Below are positions 43,471-49,763 of a stretch of DNA of 64,000 nt, piece after piece. Origin of the DNA: Bacteroidota bacterium. Its GTDB lineage: Bacteria > Bacteroidota > Bacteroidia > Bacteroidales > F082. Numbering within the stretch: the stretch's first letter is position 1; each line of letters begins with the position of its first letter. The notes beneath the pieces were generated by a model. The model saw only the letters and a list, made by a program, of their open reading frames with translations. It was not told the origin of the DNA and did no database searches. Location of the stretch: positions 186,001 through 250,000 of the forward strand of contig WOUZ01000002.1 of the NCBI GenBank assembly GCA_009773165.1, written 5' to 3'. A program made the position numbers and the translations under genes.

Positions 43471-44721
43471 ATGATGAAGAAGGGCAACAGGTTTGGTATT
43501 TTAATCTTGTATTTTATTTTTCAGCTTAGCTTTTTACAACTGAACGCACAGGGATTAAGTGAACTTAAACAACATTTTAAGCTGACAGGGTTTATAAAAA
43601 GTAATTATTGGCTCGACAGCCGAAAGGTAGAGGGTTCGCGTGAAGATTTGTTTCTTTATTACCCCAAAAAACCACAGCTGGATATCAACGGAGATGACAT
43701 CAACAGTGGATTAAACTCAAATTATAGTGCCATCAATACCCGGCTTACACTTACCATTACCGGGCCTGATGTGTTGAATGCCAAGGTAACAGGACTAATC
43801 GAAAGTGATTATACAGGAGTTACGAATGCTGATGTTAATGGTTTGCGTTTACGGCATGCTTATATTCATCTTAAATGGGCCAATGATGAGTTGATGTTAG
43901 GTCAGTATTGGCATCCAATGTTTGTTCCGGAAGTATTTCCCGAAGTGCTGGCGTTTAATACTGGTGCACCATTTCAACCGTTTATCCGTAATCCGTTGGT
44001 AAGTTATAAGCATTATTTTGGAAAGCTATCATTACAAGCATCATTGATCATGCAAAGGGACAATAGTAGCGATGGACCACTTGGAAGGAATGCCATTTAT
44101 ATGCAGGAAGCTGCACTACCTAACAGCCATCTGCAGCTGCATTATAAAATAAACCGGCATATTTTTGGAGCAGCAATCGACTACAAGATTATACAGCCGC
44201 TCTCGGTTACTAATCAGCATGTTAAAACAAATAAATTACTTCCTTCAACATCTTTAATGGCTTTCTGGAAGTATTCAAAAGACAAGTTAACCCTTCAATT
44301 TAAATCGATCTACGGACAAAACCTTACTGAGCATCTCATGCTTGGAGGTTATGCTGTTGCCAGCCGCGATTCCTTAACAGGTGTTGAAACCTATACCCCA
44401 ACCAATCATTTTTTTATTTGGGGAGGTATTCATTATGGCGAGCGTTATCGGTTTGGGTTGTTTAGTGGTTTCGCTAAAAATTTTGGCACAAGCAAAGAAA
44501 ATATTGGTGTTTATTACACAAAGGGTGCAGACGTGGATTATTTATTCAGAATTGCCCCAAGTTTCTGTTTTCATTCAGGGCCATTGCGCCTGGGATCAGA
44601 ACTTGAATATACTGCTGCCGCCTTTGGAACACCCGACAAGCAAGGCAGGGTAGAAAAAACAAGCCTGACAAGTAATGTCAGGCTGTTGCTGGTAGCGGCA
44701 TATTTTTTTAATACTCAGTAA
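43471..44721 (+). CDS. Outer-membrane beta-barrel porin, DcaP-like
   Basis: A 416-residue exported protein (signal peptide to LQLNAQ) followed by a coil-prone stretch and a beta-rich barrel with alternating hydrophobic segments, such as FKLTGFIKSNYWLDS, LRLRHAYIHLKWAN and LMLGQYWHPMF. The end (LLLVAAYFFNTQ) lacks the classical terminal Phe. The layout resembles DcaP-like porins that pass organic acids. It is convergent with the symporter/CoA-transferase operon, so a role in its substrate uptake is possible but unproven. Confidence 0.72.
   Translation: MMKKGNRFGILILYFIFQLSFLQLNAQGLSELKQHFKLTGFIKSNYWLDSRKVEGSREDLFLYYPKKPQLDINGDDINSGLNSNYSAINTRLTLTITGPDVLNAKVTGLIESDYTGVTNADVNGLRLRHAYIHLKWANDELMLGQYWHPMFVPEVFPEVLAFNTGAPFQPFIRNPLVSYKHYFGKLSLQASLIMQRDNSSDGPLGRNAIYMQEAALPNSHLQLHYKINRHIFGAAIDYKIIQPLSVTNQHVKTNKLLPSTSLMAFWKYSKDKLTLQFKSIYGQNLTEHLMLGGYAVASRDSLTGVETYTPTNHFFIWGGIHYGERYRFGLFSGFAKNFGTSKENIGVYYTKGADVDYLFRIAPSFCFHSGPLRLGSELEYTAAAFGTPDKQGRVEKTSLTSNVRLLLVAAYFFNTQ
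44654..44684 (-). terminator. Terminator of the symporter/CoA-transferase/oxidoreductase operon, inside the porin gene
   Basis: On the minus strand a perfect 9-bp stem (AGCCTGACA / TGTCAGGCT, loop TTACT) is followed by TG and six T. It lies about 50 nt past the stop of the oxidoreductase beta-gamma gene and falls within the last codons of the convergent porin gene. Confidence 0.8.
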
Positions 44722-44732
44722 GAGTTTGCGAT

Positions 44733-46007
44733 TCAGATATTAGCGGTAAAAGTTTCAACAGGAACTTTTGTAGATAACTTGTTGCGGGAAAAAGCAGTTA
44801 GTAAAGAAGCTTCTGATAAAATCCCATAATCCTTTATTAGCTTGAAAACACTGAGCATTGCAGCATTACGCGAACCGGCTTTGCTTCGTAAATCTGTTGA
44901 AATAACAGTTGAGGCTGTTTCCGGAGTTTCAAGTGAGCTATCGAGAAGAATGACCGAGGTGTCGCTTTTTTTGATGCGAGGCATAGCATATTCCAGCCCA
45001 TCTTGCGAGGTAATCAGCATATAATCAGGCTTCGTCGAACCAGAATAATAAATTGGTTTGTCGGAGATGATGACTTCAGCTGCTGAAAAACCTACACCAA
45101 CAGTTACAGGGTAATGGCCTTTTTTTGTCGCATATAAACCTGATAACATGGCTGTCCGGGCCAGAAATTCTGCTGCTGATTGCGTGCCTTCACCTGCAGA
45201 ACCTCCTAACAAAATGCGTACAGTACCTTTTATTACAGGATCAAATTCTTTTTCAACAACAAGTTTGTCGGTTAAAAGACTATTATTAAATCCGGAATAG
45301 GTTTCGTTATGATTAACAGAGCGCTCAAGCTTGTTTTTATGCAGTTGCAATCCGGATGATTCGATCACTTGTTTAAGTTTCATTCCTGGGTTTGACTTTA
45401 CGCCATAACTAGGGCAAATCTCCATTACTTCAACAAGTGAAAAGCCAGGTTGAGAAAATGCTTCAACCAACTCATCAGAGAAATCGCCAATTCCTGAAAT
45501 CCTGCTAACATAAGCAGCGCCAACGCCTTCCATGAGCCGAACCATATCAATTGCGCCAATTGCTGAGCGGTTTGGTGCAGTAGGGGTATTAAATCCACAG
45601 GGAGTAAACTCACTTGGTTGGCCACCTGTCATACCATATAACATGTTGTTGTGTATCACAACAGTCATTGGGAAGTTATGATGGGCTGCAACTAAAAGAT
45701 GCTGCATGCCTATTGTTGCTCCGCCATCACCAATGAAAACAACAACTTTTTTGCCAGAATCTTTTGGCAAGCCTGCTGCGATACCGCCAGCAAGTGCAAC
45801 TGAGCGACCATGTAATCCGTGGACGGTATGCGATCTTAACGATTTGTCGATAATCCCATGGCATCCGATGTCAGTCACAAAAATGACATCTAACGGATTA
45901 TACCCCATTTTTTGTAAGGCTTTTTCAGTATTCTGAGCAACACCGGCATGGCCACAACCTTTGCAAAAAGGTAAGTCTTTACTGTCAATTAAAAATCTGT
46001 TATCCAT
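44733..46007 (-). CDS. 2-oxoacid:acceptor oxidoreductase, fused beta and gamma subunits
   Basis: A 424-residue protein. Residues 1-230 form the thiamine diphosphate beta subunit: C15/C18 in CKGCGH, C49 (DIGCHG) and C198 (EICPSYG) as [4Fe-4S] ligands, and GDGG at 93-96 with NNMLYGMTGGQ for TPP and Mg. Residues about 260-400 are a gamma domain (ILLGGSAGEGTQSAAEFLA). The enzyme oxidises a 2-oxoacid to acyl-CoA with reduction of ferredoxin. The alpha subunit is the gene before it (8-nt overlap). More often gamma is fused to alpha, so this arrangement is uncommon. No ferredoxin (delta) subunit is present. Confidence 0.88.
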   Translation of the reverse strand: MDNRFLIDSKDLPFCKGCGHAGVAQNTEKALQKMGYNPLDVIFVTDIGCHGIIDKSLRSHTVHGLHGRSVALAGGIAAGLPKDSGKKVVVFIGDGGATIGMQHLLVAAHHNFPMTVVIHNNMLYGMTGGQPSEFTPCGFNTPTAPNRSAIGAIDMVRLMEGVGAAYVSRISGIGDFSDELVEAFSQPGFSLVEVMEICPSYGVKSNPGMKLKQVIESSGLQLHKNKLERSVNHNETYSGFNNSLLTDKLVVEKEFDPVIKGTVRILLGGSAGEGTQSAAEFLARTAMLSGLYATKKGHYPVTVGVGFSAAEVIISDKPIYYSGSTKPDYMLITSQDGLEYAMPRIKKSDTSVILLDSSLETPETASTVISTDLRSKAGSRNAAMLSVFKLIKDYGILSEASLLTAFSRNKLSTKVPVETFTANI

Positions 46008-47127
46008 TGCTGTTTACCTCCTTAATAATTTCTTCAGGTTGTATCATTCTTCCAATTGCATTCACTCCTTTTATGTGAGAAGGGGGCTTACTTCCATAAA
46101 GAAGATGCCTGTATTGCCCATCGAGATTTTCTTCGGCAATAATAACTTTCTTGTAGGATGCTAATATCTGATGATATTTATCAGGCATTGGAAAAAGCGT
46201 TTTAGCAACCAGAAGGTCAACTTTTTCGCCTGCATCCCTCAATTTGTGCAGAGCCTCACGGCTAGCCTGTGCTGTTATATCGAAACTAAGAATGATTGTC
46301 TCAGCACTTTCTGTCTCATCTAATTCATAAAACAGAAACTCATCCAGATGTAAATCTAATTTAGCCTTCAGCCTCCTGGTATTATCCAGCGCTTCCGGTG
46401 TGGTATTCTGGAGGATTCCTTCTTTATTATGAGTACTGGCAGTGAATCTTACCTGATGTTGATTTTGAGTAACAGGAAGAAACGAAGGAATAAGATTTTC
46501 CTTTGTTTCATACGATTTGTAGAGGTTATCTCCTTCAAAAACAGCCAATTCAGATTTTTTTATTTCCGTAAGTTTTGTAAGGTCAAAGCTCATTTGTGTC
46601 ATTACCATCTCTTTCGATGTAAGTAACACAACCGGTGTTCTTAACTTAATGGCAGTTTCAACAGCTTTAGCGCTCATTTCCCAGCAATCCTGAAGGTTTG
46701 AGATACAGAATGTTGGTAATTGAAACCCGCCTGAAATGCTTCCATGAACAACAGCCAGATCGCCTTGCGCTCCGTTGGTAGCTGTTCCGGTGGCTGGTCC
46801 CAATCGTTGAACCAAAATAATTACCATCGGTAACTCCATCATCAACGCCATGTTGATAGATTCAATCATTAAGGCATATCCAGGAAATGAAGTAGCAGTA
46901 ACAGGTAGTTTGCCCAGGCTGGCATAACCTGTCATCCACTGCAAGGTTGTAATCTCATCAGGGGCAGCCATCATTGCCGGATACCGCTGATTAGCATATG
47001 AGTACAATAGGTTGGCAGGTGTAATTGGGTAGCCCACAAACACTTCTGCACCTGCCCGCACACAAGCCTCAGTAATAAGGCGTGAGCCGTCGATAAATGC
47101 CATTTGTTTATTAATAGTTTCTGTCAT
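46000..47127 (-). CDS. 2-oxoacid:acceptor oxidoreductase, alpha subunit
   Basis: A 375-residue protein with the pyrimidine-binding alpha domain (AGAEVFVGYPITPANLL, PDEITTLQWMTGYASLGKLPVTATSFPG, RLGPATGTATNGAQGDL) and a C-terminal domain (residues about 270-375). It has no gamma part, in keeping with the fusion of gamma to beta in the next gene. It forms the 2-oxoacid oxidoreductase with that gene. Overlaps the CoA-transferase gene by 17 nt and the beta-gamma gene by 8 nt. The 2-oxoacid is unknown: pyruvate, 2-oxoglutarate, branched-chain or aryl 2-oxoacids are all possible. Confidence 0.88.
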   Translation of the reverse strand: MTETINKQMAFIDGSRLITEACVRAGAEVFVGYPITPANLLYSYANQRYPAMMAAPDEITTLQWMTGYASLGKLPVTATSFPGYALMIESINMALMMELPMVIILVQRLGPATGTATNGAQGDLAVVHGSISGGFQLPTFCISNLQDCWEMSAKAVETAIKLRTPVVLLTSKEMVMTQMSFDLTKLTEIKKSELAVFEGDNLYKSYETKENLIPSFLPVTQNQHQVRFTASTHNKEGILQNTTPEALDNTRRLKAKLDLHLDEFLFYELDETESAETIILSFDITAQASREALHKLRDAGEKVDLLVAKTLFPMPDKYHQILASYKKVIIAEENLDGQYRHLLYGSKPPSHIKGVNAIGRMIQPEEIIKEVNSNG

Positions 47128-48328
47128 AAATCACGTTTTTTTCGATAAGTGATTGAATTTCTTCATGTGTTAAACCGAGGATATCTCCCAGCACAAGGGC
47201 TGAATGCTGACCGTAGTGAGGAGGTGTTTCGGGAACGGTTGCAAAGGTATGATCTTTCATGGAGAAGGCAATAGAGCGCACACCTTTTAATTGCTTGCCC
47301 TCATCATTGACTGAGTGCATCATAAGGGGAATAGCTTCTTCCTGCTCAAAAACTTCTTTCATATCAAACACACCACCGGCAGGCACTTTGAATTTTTTAA
47401 ATTCCTGAAGTAAGAAAGAACGTTCTTTTTTTGCAATCAATTCTTTCAATGTGTGTTGCAAACTCTCACGGTTTTTCACTCGCTGAAAGTTATCCTGATA
47501 GCGATCATCGCAAGATAGAGATTCATCACCGAGTATTTTGCAAAGACTAACAAATTGACTGTTGGTTCCAACTGCCAGCACCACCGGCTTATTGTCAGAA
47601 GTATAATAAACAGTGCCGTATGGGACAATATTGGGATGGTCAGAACCCATTGCTTTTGGTATGCAATTTCCTACAAGCCAGTTAGTGGCCTGATTGGCTA
47701 ACGAAGCAATGCCGCTTCTAAAAAGAGAAACATCGATATAGTCGCCTTTTCCGGTTTTCAGGCGGTTGTAAAGTGCAAGAAATATCGCCTCTTTCATCTG
47801 ATGCCCAGCCAATATATCCATCAGAGCTACAGGCATTTTAACTGGTTTGCAGTCGGCCTCGCCGTTGATCAGCGTAAAGCCGGTTTCAGCCTGAATGATG
47901 GCGTCGTAGCCAGCTCTTGCGTTTTCAAGGCCGTAACCTGTTAGATGGGCATAAATAATCTTTGGATTCAGAAGATGGAGTGTTTCAAAATCAACATGGA
48001 GTTTTTCGGCATCGCCAGGCTTATAGCTCACAAGTACGATATCGAAATGTGGAATAGCTTTATGTATGATTTCCAAGCCTTCAGGGCATTGCAGGTCCAG
48101 GGCAATTGATTTCTTGCCCCAGTTTACACAACTGAAATATGCAGAGATATCTGTCGACGGATCCTCTGTAGGAAGTTTCCAGGTTCGTGTAACATCGCCT
48201 TGTGTTTGTAGGTTTTCAACTTTGATAACGGTAGCGCCAAGCTCAGCAAGCATAGCCCCAACACCGGGACCAGCCAATACATTGGCTAGTTCAAGAACTT
48301 TTATATCATGTAATATTCCAGCTGACAT
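47111..48328 (-). CDS. CaiB/BaiF (family III) CoA-transferase
   Basis: A 405-residue enzyme from the ATG at 48328. The N-terminus (VLELANVLAGPGVGAMLAELGATVIKVE) and the catalytic D142 in GYDAIIQAETG mark the family, which moves CoA between carboxylic acids via an aspartyl-CoA anhydride. C-terminal PETPPHYGQHS and LGLTHEEIQSL are typical. An upstream TTG at 48361 would overlap the symporter gene; the ATG starts 1 nt after that stop. Placed after a sodium symporter and before an acyl-CoA-forming oxidoreductase, it should activate the imported acid. Acid unknown. Confidence 0.9.
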   Translation of the reverse strand: MSAGILHDIKVLELANVLAGPGVGAMLAELGATVIKVENLQTQGDVTRTWKLPTEDPSTDISAYFSCVNWGKKSIALDLQCPEGLEIIHKAIPHFDIVLVSYKPGDAEKLHVDFETLHLLNPKIIYAHLTGYGLENARAGYDAIIQAETGFTLINGEADCKPVKMPVALMDILAGHQMKEAIFLALYNRLKTGKGDYIDVSLFRSGIASLANQATNWLVGNCIPKAMGSDHPNIVPYGTVYYTSDNKPVVLAVGTNSQFVSLCKILGDESLSCDDRYQDNFQRVKNRESLQHTLKELIAKKERSFLLQEFKKFKVPAGGVFDMKEVFEQEEAIPLMMHSVNDEGKQLKGVRSIAFSMKDHTFATVPETPPHYGQHSALVLGDILGLTHEEIQSLIEKNVIYDRNY

Positions 48329-48329
48329 A

Positions 48330-49763
48330 TCAGGATTTTTTAGCTTTTCGTATTCGTTCAATCCAATTTCCTATGATTATAAAGATGATTGCAAAAACGA
48401 CAGCGCCATAGGTTTTGTCGATGTTGAACCACTTCATCTGAGCAGCCAGAATGCAAATAAAGATTGCCGAAGTTCCACCTAAAAATGCAAGTTTTACTGC
48501 AAAAGGACTGATCCAGCTGCGTTTATATATGCCCAGCAAAATTACAATAGCTCCAATAGCGCGAATGGCATAACTTACATAAGCAGCATCTAGAATTCCT
48601 TTTTGGAAGAAAATCGCCAAAGGGAGTGTAACGATAGTGACAAGAATTACGAGTTTTTTTGCCACGGCTAACACTTTCTTTTCATCTGCCTGCGGATTAA
48701 TAAATCCATGATAGATATCTTTTGTTGCTATTGTTACAACAGCAAAATTGACAGGTCCAACAGTTGAAAGTATAGCAGCTAAAATTCCTGCAAGCGCTAG
48801 CCCTCCAAAAATAGGATGAATGAATTCAGGGTTAGTTAATAATGTAGTTAAAACCATTTTTGGATTGACAGTTGCGCTATTAACGTAATAACCTGTTGCG
48901 CCAATTAAACCTAATAATGCTGTCATAATACCAAAAGGTGCAATCAATGCACTTGAAAGGATGCTAGCTTTTTTTGCAGTTAAAGCATCTTTTGCAGCAA
49001 AAATTGGTTGTATGCTGGCTTGAGCAGCCATACCACCCAAAACACCCCCGAGTAGCAAACTGAATGCTCCGTTGAGTCCTGCACTGAACGGGTTATAGAT
49101 ATTGCCTGGAGCGCCCTTTGCTGCCAATATCGTTTGTAATTCTTCAAAACCACCAATCTTATTCATGCCAATAATTGTAGCGATTCCAACTCCGAAGAAC
49201 ATCATAAATGTGTGTGCTACTGATGTTATTGCAAGAGCATGCATTCCTCCGATATAGGTATAAAAAGTAATCACAATTGCTGAGATAAAAATAGCGCTAA
49301 GCCAACTGATTTGAAAAATAGCACTCAATACACTGGCAGCGGTCTGCATTTGTACGTAAGCTAAAGTGATGTAAGCTACAAGAAATGCAACGGCTGAAAT
49401 CTTTTTTGCTTCGCGACCAAAAAGGAAGTCCAACATTTCACTCACCGTGTGAACGTTTTGCTGGCGGTACCACTTTGCAACTGTAAAACCAATGATTATC
49501 ATGCCAATAGCTGTCGAAAAGTTATACAAAACCGGTTGAAAGGAAAGTGTTGTGAAAGCTTTCTCGCTCACTCCAATTGTACTCATACCTCCAAGCCATT
49601 CTGCTGCAACCACGACGGCGCAAAATGTCATTCCGAGATTCCTGCCTGCTACAAGATAATCAGCCACACTGCGACTAGCAATTTTTCGTGTCAAAAACGA
49701 CAACATGATTATTCCGGCAAAGTAGGCCACAACAATCAAAAAGTAGGTGTTATACAAAATCAT
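48330..49763 (-). CDS. Sodium:solute symporter (SSS family)
   Basis: A 477-residue protein with about 13 membrane segments. Family features: DYLVAGRNLG at the N-terminus, AEWLGGMSTIGVSEKAF, GIHMSVTE-like periplasmic loops and GPVNFAVVTIATKD in the middle. SSS carriers import small carboxylates, amino acids or sugars with Na+. It is the first gene of the operon, so the substrate is probably what the CoA-transferase uses. The minus strand reads TAGTTTTG at 49813-49806, a fair -7 element 42 nt before the ATG. Confidence 0.88.
   Translation of the reverse strand: MILYNTYFLIVVAYFAGIIMLSFLTRKIASRSVADYLVAGRNLGMTFCAVVVAAEWLGGMSTIGVSEKAFTTLSFQPVLYNFSTAIGMIIIGFTVAKWYRQQNVHTVSEMLDFLFGREAKKISAVAFLVAYITLAYVQMQTAASVLSAIFQISWLSAIFISAIVITFYTYIGGMHALAITSVAHTFMMFFGVGIATIIGMNKIGGFEELQTILAAKGAPGNIYNPFSAGLNGAFSLLLGGVLGGMAAQASIQPIFAAKDALTAKKASILSSALIAPFGIMTALLGLIGATGYYVNSATVNPKMVLTTLLTNPEFIHPIFGGLALAGILAAILSTVGPVNFAVVTIATKDIYHGFINPQADEKKVLAVAKKLVILVTIVTLPLAIFFQKGILDAAYVSYAIRAIGAIVILLGIYKRSWISPFAVKLAFLGGTSAIFICILAAQMKWFNIDKTYGAVVFAIIFIIIGNWIERIRKAKKS

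Follow-up and report, generated by a model that had tools for sequence, protein, structure and literature searches.

Layout of the operon and architecture of the oxidoreductase

The window analysed here is a stretch of 64,000 nucleotides from a Bacteroidota bacterium of the order Bacteroidales (assembly GCA_009773165.1, contig WOUZ01000002.1, positions 186,001 to 250,000), and its positions 44733-49763 hold a cluster of four genes, all on the minus strand, which we predict to work at the glutaryl-CoA node of lysine catabolism. The first gene (49763-48330, 477 aa) encodes a sodium:solute symporter of the SSS family (PF00474, 127.6 bits against a cut-off of 22.8). It is followed by a family III CoA-transferase (CoAT; 48328-47111, 405 aa from its ATG; PF02515, 299.8 bits against 23.3), the alpha subunit of a 2-oxoacid:ferredoxin oxidoreductase (OFOR; 47127-46000, 375 aa; POR_N 113.1 bits and PFOR_II 28.5 bits) and a second OFOR gene (46007-44733, 424 aa), whose product carries TPP_enzyme_C (PF02775, 94.4 bits, residues 46-194) and POR (PF01558, 42.1 bits, residues 271-371). 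All of these matches lay above the Pfam cut-offs, so the family assignments of an earlier, sequence-only reading of this DNA hold, and the coordinates bear out the 1-nt gap and the overlaps of 17 and 8 nt that it had given. A mechanical list of open reading frames (ORFs) starts the CoAT gene at a TTG further upstream (48361), and this longer frame would run into the symporter gene.

Directly past the last stop codon lies a terminator-like hairpin with a T run (44684-44662, minus strand), a 9-bp stem followed by TGTTTTTTCT, as expected from the shared terminator proposed earlier. The call of an operon terminator is based on its position and stem length; the terminator scan as a whole gave 7 sites versus 5.6 ± 2.5 in shuffles, i.e., no clear excess. 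A scan for sigma-70-like promoters, whose scope did not extend to promoters of the Bacteroidota type, found no excess (11 sites versus 13.5 ± 3.8 expected).

The sequence-only reading had described the oxidoreductase as a two-subunit enzyme. Two genes are present with alpha first, but the last gene encodes no plain beta subunit: judged by its Pfam domains and predicted fold, its product is an OFOR beta subunit (approximately residues 1-240, 46007-45288) fused to an OFOR gamma subunit (approximately residues 260-424, 45230-44736), both parts lying on the minus strand. An AlphaFold model of the fusion, built from 41 sequences, had a mean predicted local distance difference test score (pLDDT) of 85.4 and a predicted template modelling score (pTM) of 0.64. 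Residues 1-240 matched the OFOR beta chain 8ys5_C (Z 26.5, 2.7 Å over 237 residues) and residues 260-424 the OFOR gamma chain 3on3_B (Z 19.2, 2.3 Å over 157 residues); the fold comparison barely tests regions beyond residues 1-230, yet three gamma structures align to residues 260-424.

The enzyme has the features of the OFOR superfamily, namely an alpha subunit with YPITP and the substrate arginine, a beta part with four cluster cysteines and a gamma domain, and these cofactor motifs are intact among its relatives. In an alignment of 84 alpha plus beta-gamma rows, from which L089, L099 and L115 of the original 87 had been dropped for their short alpha fragments, YPITP at alpha 33-37 was present in 82 rows, the remaining 2 having gaps, and both alpha Arg108, the arginine for the substrate carboxylate, and the cluster cysteines beta Cys15/18/49/198 were kept in 84 of 84. 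In the Sulfolobus tokodaii enzyme (StOFOR), beta Lys49 and alpha Asp468 are described as required for 2-oxoglutarate and dispensable for pyruvate (PMC5020499). Here the former position held Ile in 83 rows and Met in one, and the latter Ser in all 84; the position of StOFOR Leu123 was Met throughout (84/84). The Lys49 position is Lys or Arg in the solved 2-oxoglutarate-active structures 5b46, 5b48, 8ys5 and 6n2n, and a basic residue there, a mark of the 2-oxoglutarate enzymes KorAB and Oor, was not found in any of the 84 rows. The NCBIfam 2-oxoglutarate models were missed by a wide distance (beta NF007207, 111.3 versus a cut-off of 364; alpha NF007206, 176.8 versus 579), and no NCBIfam oxidoreductase family was reached above its cut-off by the window enzyme. 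Because the pocket positions are nearly invariant over these rows, the family appears to share one substrate and to differ from the known 2-oxoglutarate enzymes; taken alone, the examined positions would also be compatible with a pyruvate-like pocket.

The window enzyme shares alpha/beta homology, the thiamine pyrophosphate site, the four cluster cysteines, YPITP and the substrate arginine with Helicobacter pylori OorDABC (8ys5), Magnetococcus marinus OGOR (MmOGOR, 6n2n) and StOFOR (5b46-5b48). The long alpha chain of StOFOR and MmOGOR contains the gamma-like part, whereas here gamma is fused to the beta C-terminus, and the StOFOR residues required for 2-oxoglutarate are replaced by Ile and Ser. 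Unlike the 2-oxoglutarate:ferredoxin oxidoreductases, the window cluster has no ferredoxin-like delta gene.

Distribution, gene neighbourhoods and partner proteins

Among 295 genomes of the order, a beta-like match (E<=1e-20) was found in 153, and a near-full-length fusion match (<=4e-119) in 21, including the genome that carries the window; the next best value was 4e-28, which leaves a clean gap. When 84,980 species genomes were scanned, 122 relatives emerged, of which the best 80 were kept; together with 6 of 20 loci of the order that were no duplicates, they form a set of 86 distinct loci. By name, the relatives belong to Bacteroidota, Ignavibacteria, Chloroflexota, WOR-3, Fermentibacteria, Bipolaricaulota, Eisenbacteria and one Thermoplasmata bin. 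All four genes were present in 30 of the 86 loci, in each case on a single strand and in identical order, which is more than chance would give; the synteny among related genomes that the sequence-only reading had named as a check is therefore conserved. At the other loci, alpha and beta-gamma stand with different partners. The record of the named strain Perlabentimonas gracilis M08_MB (L110) includes the four-gene cluster. Many contigs stop within a few kb, so that neighbourhood counts are lower bounds, and the mechanical ORF caller misnames genes in GC-rich loci; the symporter missed in L119 and L121 was recovered by tblastn.

The most telling partner was glutaryl-CoA dehydrogenase (GCDH). 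Its gene and the fusion OFOR were less than 1 kb apart in 18 of the 86 loci (divergent in 15, co-directional in 3), in Bacteroidota and Ignavibacteriota; the encoded proteins were 70-82% identical to the GCDH of the window genome. In L065, genes for an acyl-CoA dehydrogenase, GCDH, the symporter, CoAT, alpha and beta-gamma follow each other on one strand. About 7 kb from the four genes, L058 has a thiolase-like fragment, an acyl-CoA dehydrogenase and GCDH. On a tree of the 84 rows, which came from a short search with SH-aLRT (approximate likelihood ratio) support only and is weak at its deepest forks, 11 changes were required for the CoAT-adjacent label (34 rows including the window) and 6 for the label marking an adjacent dehydrogenase (18 rows), and 0 of 500 shuffles was as low in either case. 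The former label means CoAT within 1 kb and includes L054 and L098, where no symporter was found, and L131, where the contig ends; a further 22 of the 84 rows had no neighbourhood label, with CoAT cut by the contig end in L053, L117 and L122 among them. Each neighbourhood type is thus clustered on the tree, yet has been gained or lost several times. Because the rows interleave and the pocket positions are nearly uniform, CoAT-adjacent and dehydrogenase-adjacent OFORs likely act on one substrate.

Other partners were also seen. Upstream of alpha in L061, L069, L071 and L072 stand a caprolactamase-like CapA/CapB pair and an acyl-CoA dehydrogenase other than GCDH (30-34% identical), and HMG-CoA-synthase-like and thiolase-like genes lie beside the OFOR in L061, L067, L069 and L071. 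Butyrate kinase genes occur near the symporter and OFOR in L119, L121 and L128, the one in L119 being named so by NCBIfam. In L128 (5284-7430, a Fermentibacteria bin) the butyrate-kinase gene is directly upstream of symporter, alpha and beta-gamma, in the place of CoAT, beside a second gene that we take, by eye, to encode a phosphate butyryltransferase.

The CoAT keeps the catalytic Asp171 of family III in 34 of 34 aligned copies. The best of seven NCBIfam families listed for it was succinate-glutarate CoA-transferase (NF052585, 276.8 bits), and the next reached 177.6, which is 99 bits lower. Among its closest solved structures was PDB 9br7 (5.8e-58), a succinate-hydroxymethylglutarate CoA-transferase; we take 9br6 and 9br7 to be human SUGCT, succinyl-CoA:glutarate CoA-transferase. 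In Pseudomonas putida, the CoA-transferase gene reportedly stands alongside that for GCDH (gcdHG), and this differs from the window, where CoAT adjoins a ferredoxin-type oxidoreductase and a sodium symporter. The window CoAT shares its family III membership, catalytic Asp and best NCBIfam family with P. putida GcdG and with Agrobacterium tumefaciens CaiB. The latter is described as converting glutarate and succinyl-CoA to glutaryl-CoA, reversibly and in lysine catabolism, with acetyl-CoA also accepted, and GcdG as related to CaiB and inducible by either lysine or glutarate (PMC7645780). The same paper describes BioZ as an enzyme that draws on glutaryl-CoA to make biotin.

For the symporter, the best NCBIfam match was the general sss superfamily model (130.6 versus a cut-off of 184). 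Its orthologues (E<=1e-75) occur in 13 of the 295 genomes, of which ten also carry CoAT and the fusion OFOR, the other three being G198, G048 and G097; G244, one of the ten, has its symporter gene on a different contig, at that contig's end. Its substrate would be a dicarboxylate of the pathway, either glutarate or 2-oxoadipate or 2-aminoadipate.

Putative lysine-pathway genes and an operon exchanged at the same site

The window genome carries a single stand-alone GCDH gene (C2:18011-19189; top PDB match the GCDH structure 3eom, 3.7e-130). On contig C9, a gene resembling lysine-ketoglutarate reductase (LKR) is followed by a putative saccharopine dehydrogenase (SDH) gene (L144 12588-11281 and 11220-9883). 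The SDH product matched PF16653 (253.2 bits) and PF03435 (78 bits), and the LKR-like product PF05222 (91.6 bits), a family common to alanine dehydrogenase; no NCBIfam model names either gene, and the LKR label comes from architecture and position. A second gene of the saccharopine dehydrogenase family (PF16653) stands alone on C12 (L145 7677-8843) and is perhaps, as we presume, a carboxynorspermidine synthase. The genome further has four other POR_N loci, one family III CoA-transferase and one E1 gene of 2-oxoglutarate dehydrogenase (OGDH).

Co-occurrence was compared between the 21 fusion genomes and the 274 others, with one-sided tests ignoring kinship. Enrichment was found for GCDH (14/21 versus 45/274, p 1.6e-6), SDH-like genes (20/21 versus 140/274, p 3e-5), LKR-like genes (18/21 versus 139/274, p 1.4e-3) and OGDH (19/21 versus 106/274, p 3e-6). 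The LKR and SDH lists mix identity groups (LKR about 46-66% and 32-39%; SDH mostly 53-79% and 35-41%); some members of the low-identity groups may be other enzymes. With the high-identity groups, SDH was still enriched (15/21 versus 67/274, p 2e-5), as were LKR and SDH together (10/21 versus 50/274, p 0.003). Among OGDH-bearing genomes, GCDH (13/19 versus 25/106, p 2e-4) and high-identity SDH (13/19 versus 41/106, p 0.016) remained enriched. Within the fusion genomes, GCDH was present in 4 of the 10 with all four genes versus 10 of the 11 with OFOR and neither symporter nor CoAT (two-sided p 0.024), a pattern that would suit CoAT and GCDH as alternative outlets.

A different operon was encountered downstream of the symporter in G048 (L164 8210-15551, C33), where the symporter precedes genes for a KamA-like radical S-adenosylmethionine (SAM) protein, 3-oxoacid CoA-transferase subunits A and B (CTA and CTB, both above family cut-offs), a pyridoxal phosphate enzyme resembling glutamate-semialdehyde aminomutase (GSAM) and a thiolase. 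The KamA-like protein keeps the CxxxCxxC motif and is remote from lysine 2,3-aminomutase (2a5h, 1.9e-15). A strong match to it occurs in 9 of 44 hand-chosen genomes; the five-gene order is kept in all nine of those loci (L164 and L179-L186), and the symporter lies upstream of it in G048 only. The KamA-like gene was absent from all 21 fusion genomes (0/21). It was present in ten genomes of an even sample of 145, the loci of four of which were inspected; nine of these ten have LKR-like and SDH-like genes (high-identity LKR in 8, high-identity SDH in 5), the exception being G061, which is 70% complete.

The two operons occupy the same site in related genomes. In L096, L109, L111 and L112 the order is MurF, AnmK, symporter, CoAT, alpha, beta-gamma, c6, nucleoside phosphorylase and CinA; it is identical except for AnmK in L104 and L116, and matches in part in L106 and L122. 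We assigned the names MurF, AnmK and CinA by eye from the sequence, with no family search. In L185 (G032) and L184 (G146, without AnmK), the five-gene operon lies between identical flanks in opposite orientation, and G032 and G146 share a genus handle with G241, whose locus L109 is of the four-gene type. A simple reading is that each operon would dispose of one and the same lysine-derived compound: the OFOR would consume 2-oxoadipate, while the five-gene operon, judged by its gene families, would act on 2-aminoadipate through aminomutase, transaminase, CoA-transferase and thiolase. The Bacillus lysine operon kamA-yodPQRST comprises an aminomutase, a two-subunit CoA-transferase and a class III aminotransferase, a set that the five-gene operon resembles; the Bacteroidales operon differs in its very divergent aminomutase, the lack of an acetyltransferase gene and the added thiolase.

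We speculate, at less than even odds, that Bacteroidales and several other phyla possess a dedicated beta-gamma-fused 2-oxoadipate:ferredoxin oxidoreductase, by which lysine would be taken to glutaryl-CoA with low-potential electrons saved, and that relatives have swapped it, at the same site, for an undescribed radical-SAM aminomutase route running from 2-aminoadipate through 3-aminoadipate, 3-oxoadipate and 3-oxoadipyl-CoA to succinyl-CoA and acetyl-CoA. If so, this replacement of one operon by a dissimilar one in the same place would directly exemplify, in a testable way, two solutions to a single pathway step.

The predicted glutaryl-CoA node and its alternatives

The sequence-only reading had proposed one pathway for the four genes, in which CoA from the oxidoreductase product is passed to an imported acid. 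A co-directional, widely conserved unit was indeed found that combines the transport of an acid with CoA transfer and a ferredoxin-type 2-oxoacid oxidoreductase; a simple hand-over of CoA to an imported acid was not supported, as the neighbourhoods point to glutaryl-CoA as a shared compound. Because these neighbourhoods suggest that OFOR and CoAT meet at glutaryl-CoA, we read the operon as the glutaryl-CoA node of lysine catabolism with a 2-oxoadipate-specific OFOR, and put the probability of this whole statement at roughly 0.57. For the alpha/beta-gamma enzyme by itself, 2-oxoadipate:ferredoxin oxidoreductase is the probable activity, deduced only from neighbourhoods and operon exchange. The choice of 2-oxoadipate draws on the adjacency of GCDH, the best family of the CoAT, the GCDH and saccharopine-like genes of the window genome, the co-occurrence across the order and the operon exchange.

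In the proposed route, every substrate and direction of flow of which is putative, lysine would be converted through saccharopine and 2-aminoadipate to 2-oxoadipate. The alpha/beta-gamma enzyme would then decarboxylate 2-oxoadipate oxidatively with CoA to glutaryl-CoA, and the electrons would pass through a single [4Fe-4S] cluster to ferredoxin. CoAT would link glutaryl-CoA and free glutarate by the reversible reaction succinyl-CoA + glutarate = succinate + glutaryl-CoA, and the symporter would move glutarate or a near relative across the membrane. Glutaryl-CoA would proceed to crotonyl-CoA through GCDH where its gene is present, as in the window genome, and would exit as glutarate in genomes without it.

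Several observations weigh against this assignment. The Ile at the position that is Lys or Arg in solved 2-oxoglutarate-active OFORs means that the distal carboxylate would need a basic partner elsewhere; alpha Arg227, present in 84 of 84 rows, is our guess. The CoAT score is far under the curated NF052585 cut-off of 750. A search of the flanking stretches L032-L131 at E<=1e-10 turned up neither LKR nor SDH, and high-identity LKR was barely enriched in the fusion genomes (10/21 versus 75/274, p 0.046). Among OGDH-bearing genomes, neither LKR with SDH at loose thresholds (16/19 versus 77/106, p 0.22) nor high-identity LKR (9/19 versus 46/106, p 0.47) was enriched, and the OGDH E1 of the 19 fusion genomes, the window's included, might itself use 2-oxoadipate. 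No GCDH (E<=1e-100) was found in 6 of the 10 four-gene genomes of the order, where the fate of glutaryl-CoA is unexplained. The partners, moreover, do not always travel together: G198 (L163 8635-11294) and G097 (L165 7361-10111) carry the symporter-CoAT pair but no OFOR and no listed GCDH, G027 has CoAT without OFOR beside citrate-lyase-like genes, and L054, a close relative, has CoAT, alpha and beta-gamma without the symporter. Since the pair also occurs without OFOR, CoAT and symporter may serve other acids, at least in G198, G097 and G027.

The alternative that survives best, which we consider unlikely overall, is a glutarate-releasing fermentation with the same enzymes and reversed flow through CoAT and symporter: 2-oxoadipate would yield glutaryl-CoA, CoAT would give its CoA to succinate or acetate, ATP would be gained from succinyl-CoA or acetyl-CoA, and glutarate would leave, perhaps through the symporter working outward. 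It would fit the lack of GCDH in 6 of 10 four-gene genomes versus 1 of 11 OFOR-only genomes (p 0.024) and the butyrate-kinase genes in L119 and L128, in the latter with the putative phosphate butyryltransferase gene in the place of CoAT. SSS proteins are normally importers, however, and the symporter-CoAT pair without OFOR suits uptake and activation better. The chemistry would allow it, CaiB being described as reversible and accepting acetyl-CoA (PMC7645780).

It appears improbable that the enzyme is a general OFOR for pyruvate, 2-oxoglutarate or branched-chain 2-oxoacids, supplying an acyl-CoA such as succinyl-CoA from which CoAT passes CoA to an unrelated imported acid, as the sequence-only reading proposed. 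Gene order and coupling, succinyl-CoA as the described donor of the relative CaiB (PMC7645780) and the failure to reach any NCBIfam oxidoreductase family agree with it, and the butyrate kinase genes in L119, L121 and L128 would fit branched-chain acids. The GCDH gene adjoining OFOR in 18 of 86 loci argues the other way, as do the replacement of the StOFOR 2-oxoglutarate residues and the four other POR_N loci of the window genome, which could handle the usual 2-oxoacids. Two narrower ideas were rejected. An oxalate and formyl-CoA system, with formyl-CoA transferase and oxalate oxidoreductase, conflicts with the CoAT scores (276.8 bits for succinate-glutarate versus 159.4 for the oxalate formyl-CoA transferase model) and with the alpha motif, which is YPITP and not the YPIRP given for oxalate oxidoreductase (PMC5020499). 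A role of the OFOR as a substitute for an absent OGDH conflicts with the presence of OGDH E1 in 19 of 21 fusion genomes.

Quite improbable, in our judgement, is that symporter and CoAT serve another dicarboxylate (itaconate, citramalate, 3-hydroxy-3-methylglutarate or similar) and are merely co-transcribed with a 2-oxoadipate OFOR. The G198 and G097 pairs, the G027 CoAT, which shares a strand with a DcaP-like porin gene and citrate-lyase-like genes, and the hydroxymethylglutarate enzyme 9br7 among the closest CoAT structures would suit this; the four genes in one order at 30 loci, and GCDH adjoining or near them in L065 and L058, speak against it. A reductive route, in which imported glutarate would be activated to glutaryl-CoA and then carboxylated at the expense of reduced ferredoxin, giving 2-oxoadipate from which lysine or 2-aminoadipate is made, is very improbable: OFORs are reversible in principle, symporter, CoAT and OFOR would make a complete line from uptake to 2-oxoadipate, and 6 of 10 four-gene genomes lack the dehydrogenase, but both the GCDH neighbourhoods and the exchange with a thiolase-terminated operon indicate degradation.

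If the glutaryl-CoA node is as predicted, an oxidoreductase known to databases just as '2-oxoacid:acceptor' would be given a substrate, and the little-cultured Bacteroidales, Ignavibacteria and Chloroflexota would have a ferredoxin-linked branch of lysine breakdown that saves low-potential electrons. The mitochondrial saccharopine pathway includes LKR, SDH and GCDH steps. The hydroxyglutarate synthase (HglS) route of P. putida uses, to our knowledge, no CoA, no ferredoxin and no glutaryl-CoA. HglS is described as acting on 2-oxoadipate when bacteria break down lysine (PMC7286885), and the DHTKD1 2-oxoadipate dehydrogenase complex as the enzyme that forms glutaryl-CoA from 2-oxoadipate in lysine catabolism (PMC9367764). 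In contrast to this NADH-forming complex, the window step would be carried out by a two-chain ferredoxin-reducing OFOR, an iron-sulfur enzyme performing a step done by a different enzyme in well-studied organisms. Our searches of the open-licence PMC literature turned up no 2-oxoadipate:ferredoxin oxidoreductase, although one may still be in print.

Convergent with the operon, and ending 11 nt from its 3′ end, so that its own 3′ end contains the terminator-like hairpin, is an outer-membrane porin-like gene (43471-44721, plus strand), weakly DcaP-like (PF19577, E 5e-4, below cut-off). It is a neighbour and not an operon member, and it is kept next to the cluster in L052 and L054. In G027 (L166 3998-9381; C27:69001-87000), a CoAT orthologue (55%), a porin, a CitD-CitE fusion and CitF are encoded on one strand; this porin is DcaP-like and 55% identical to that of the window, and the arrangement hints at a porin passing the acid that CoAT activates.

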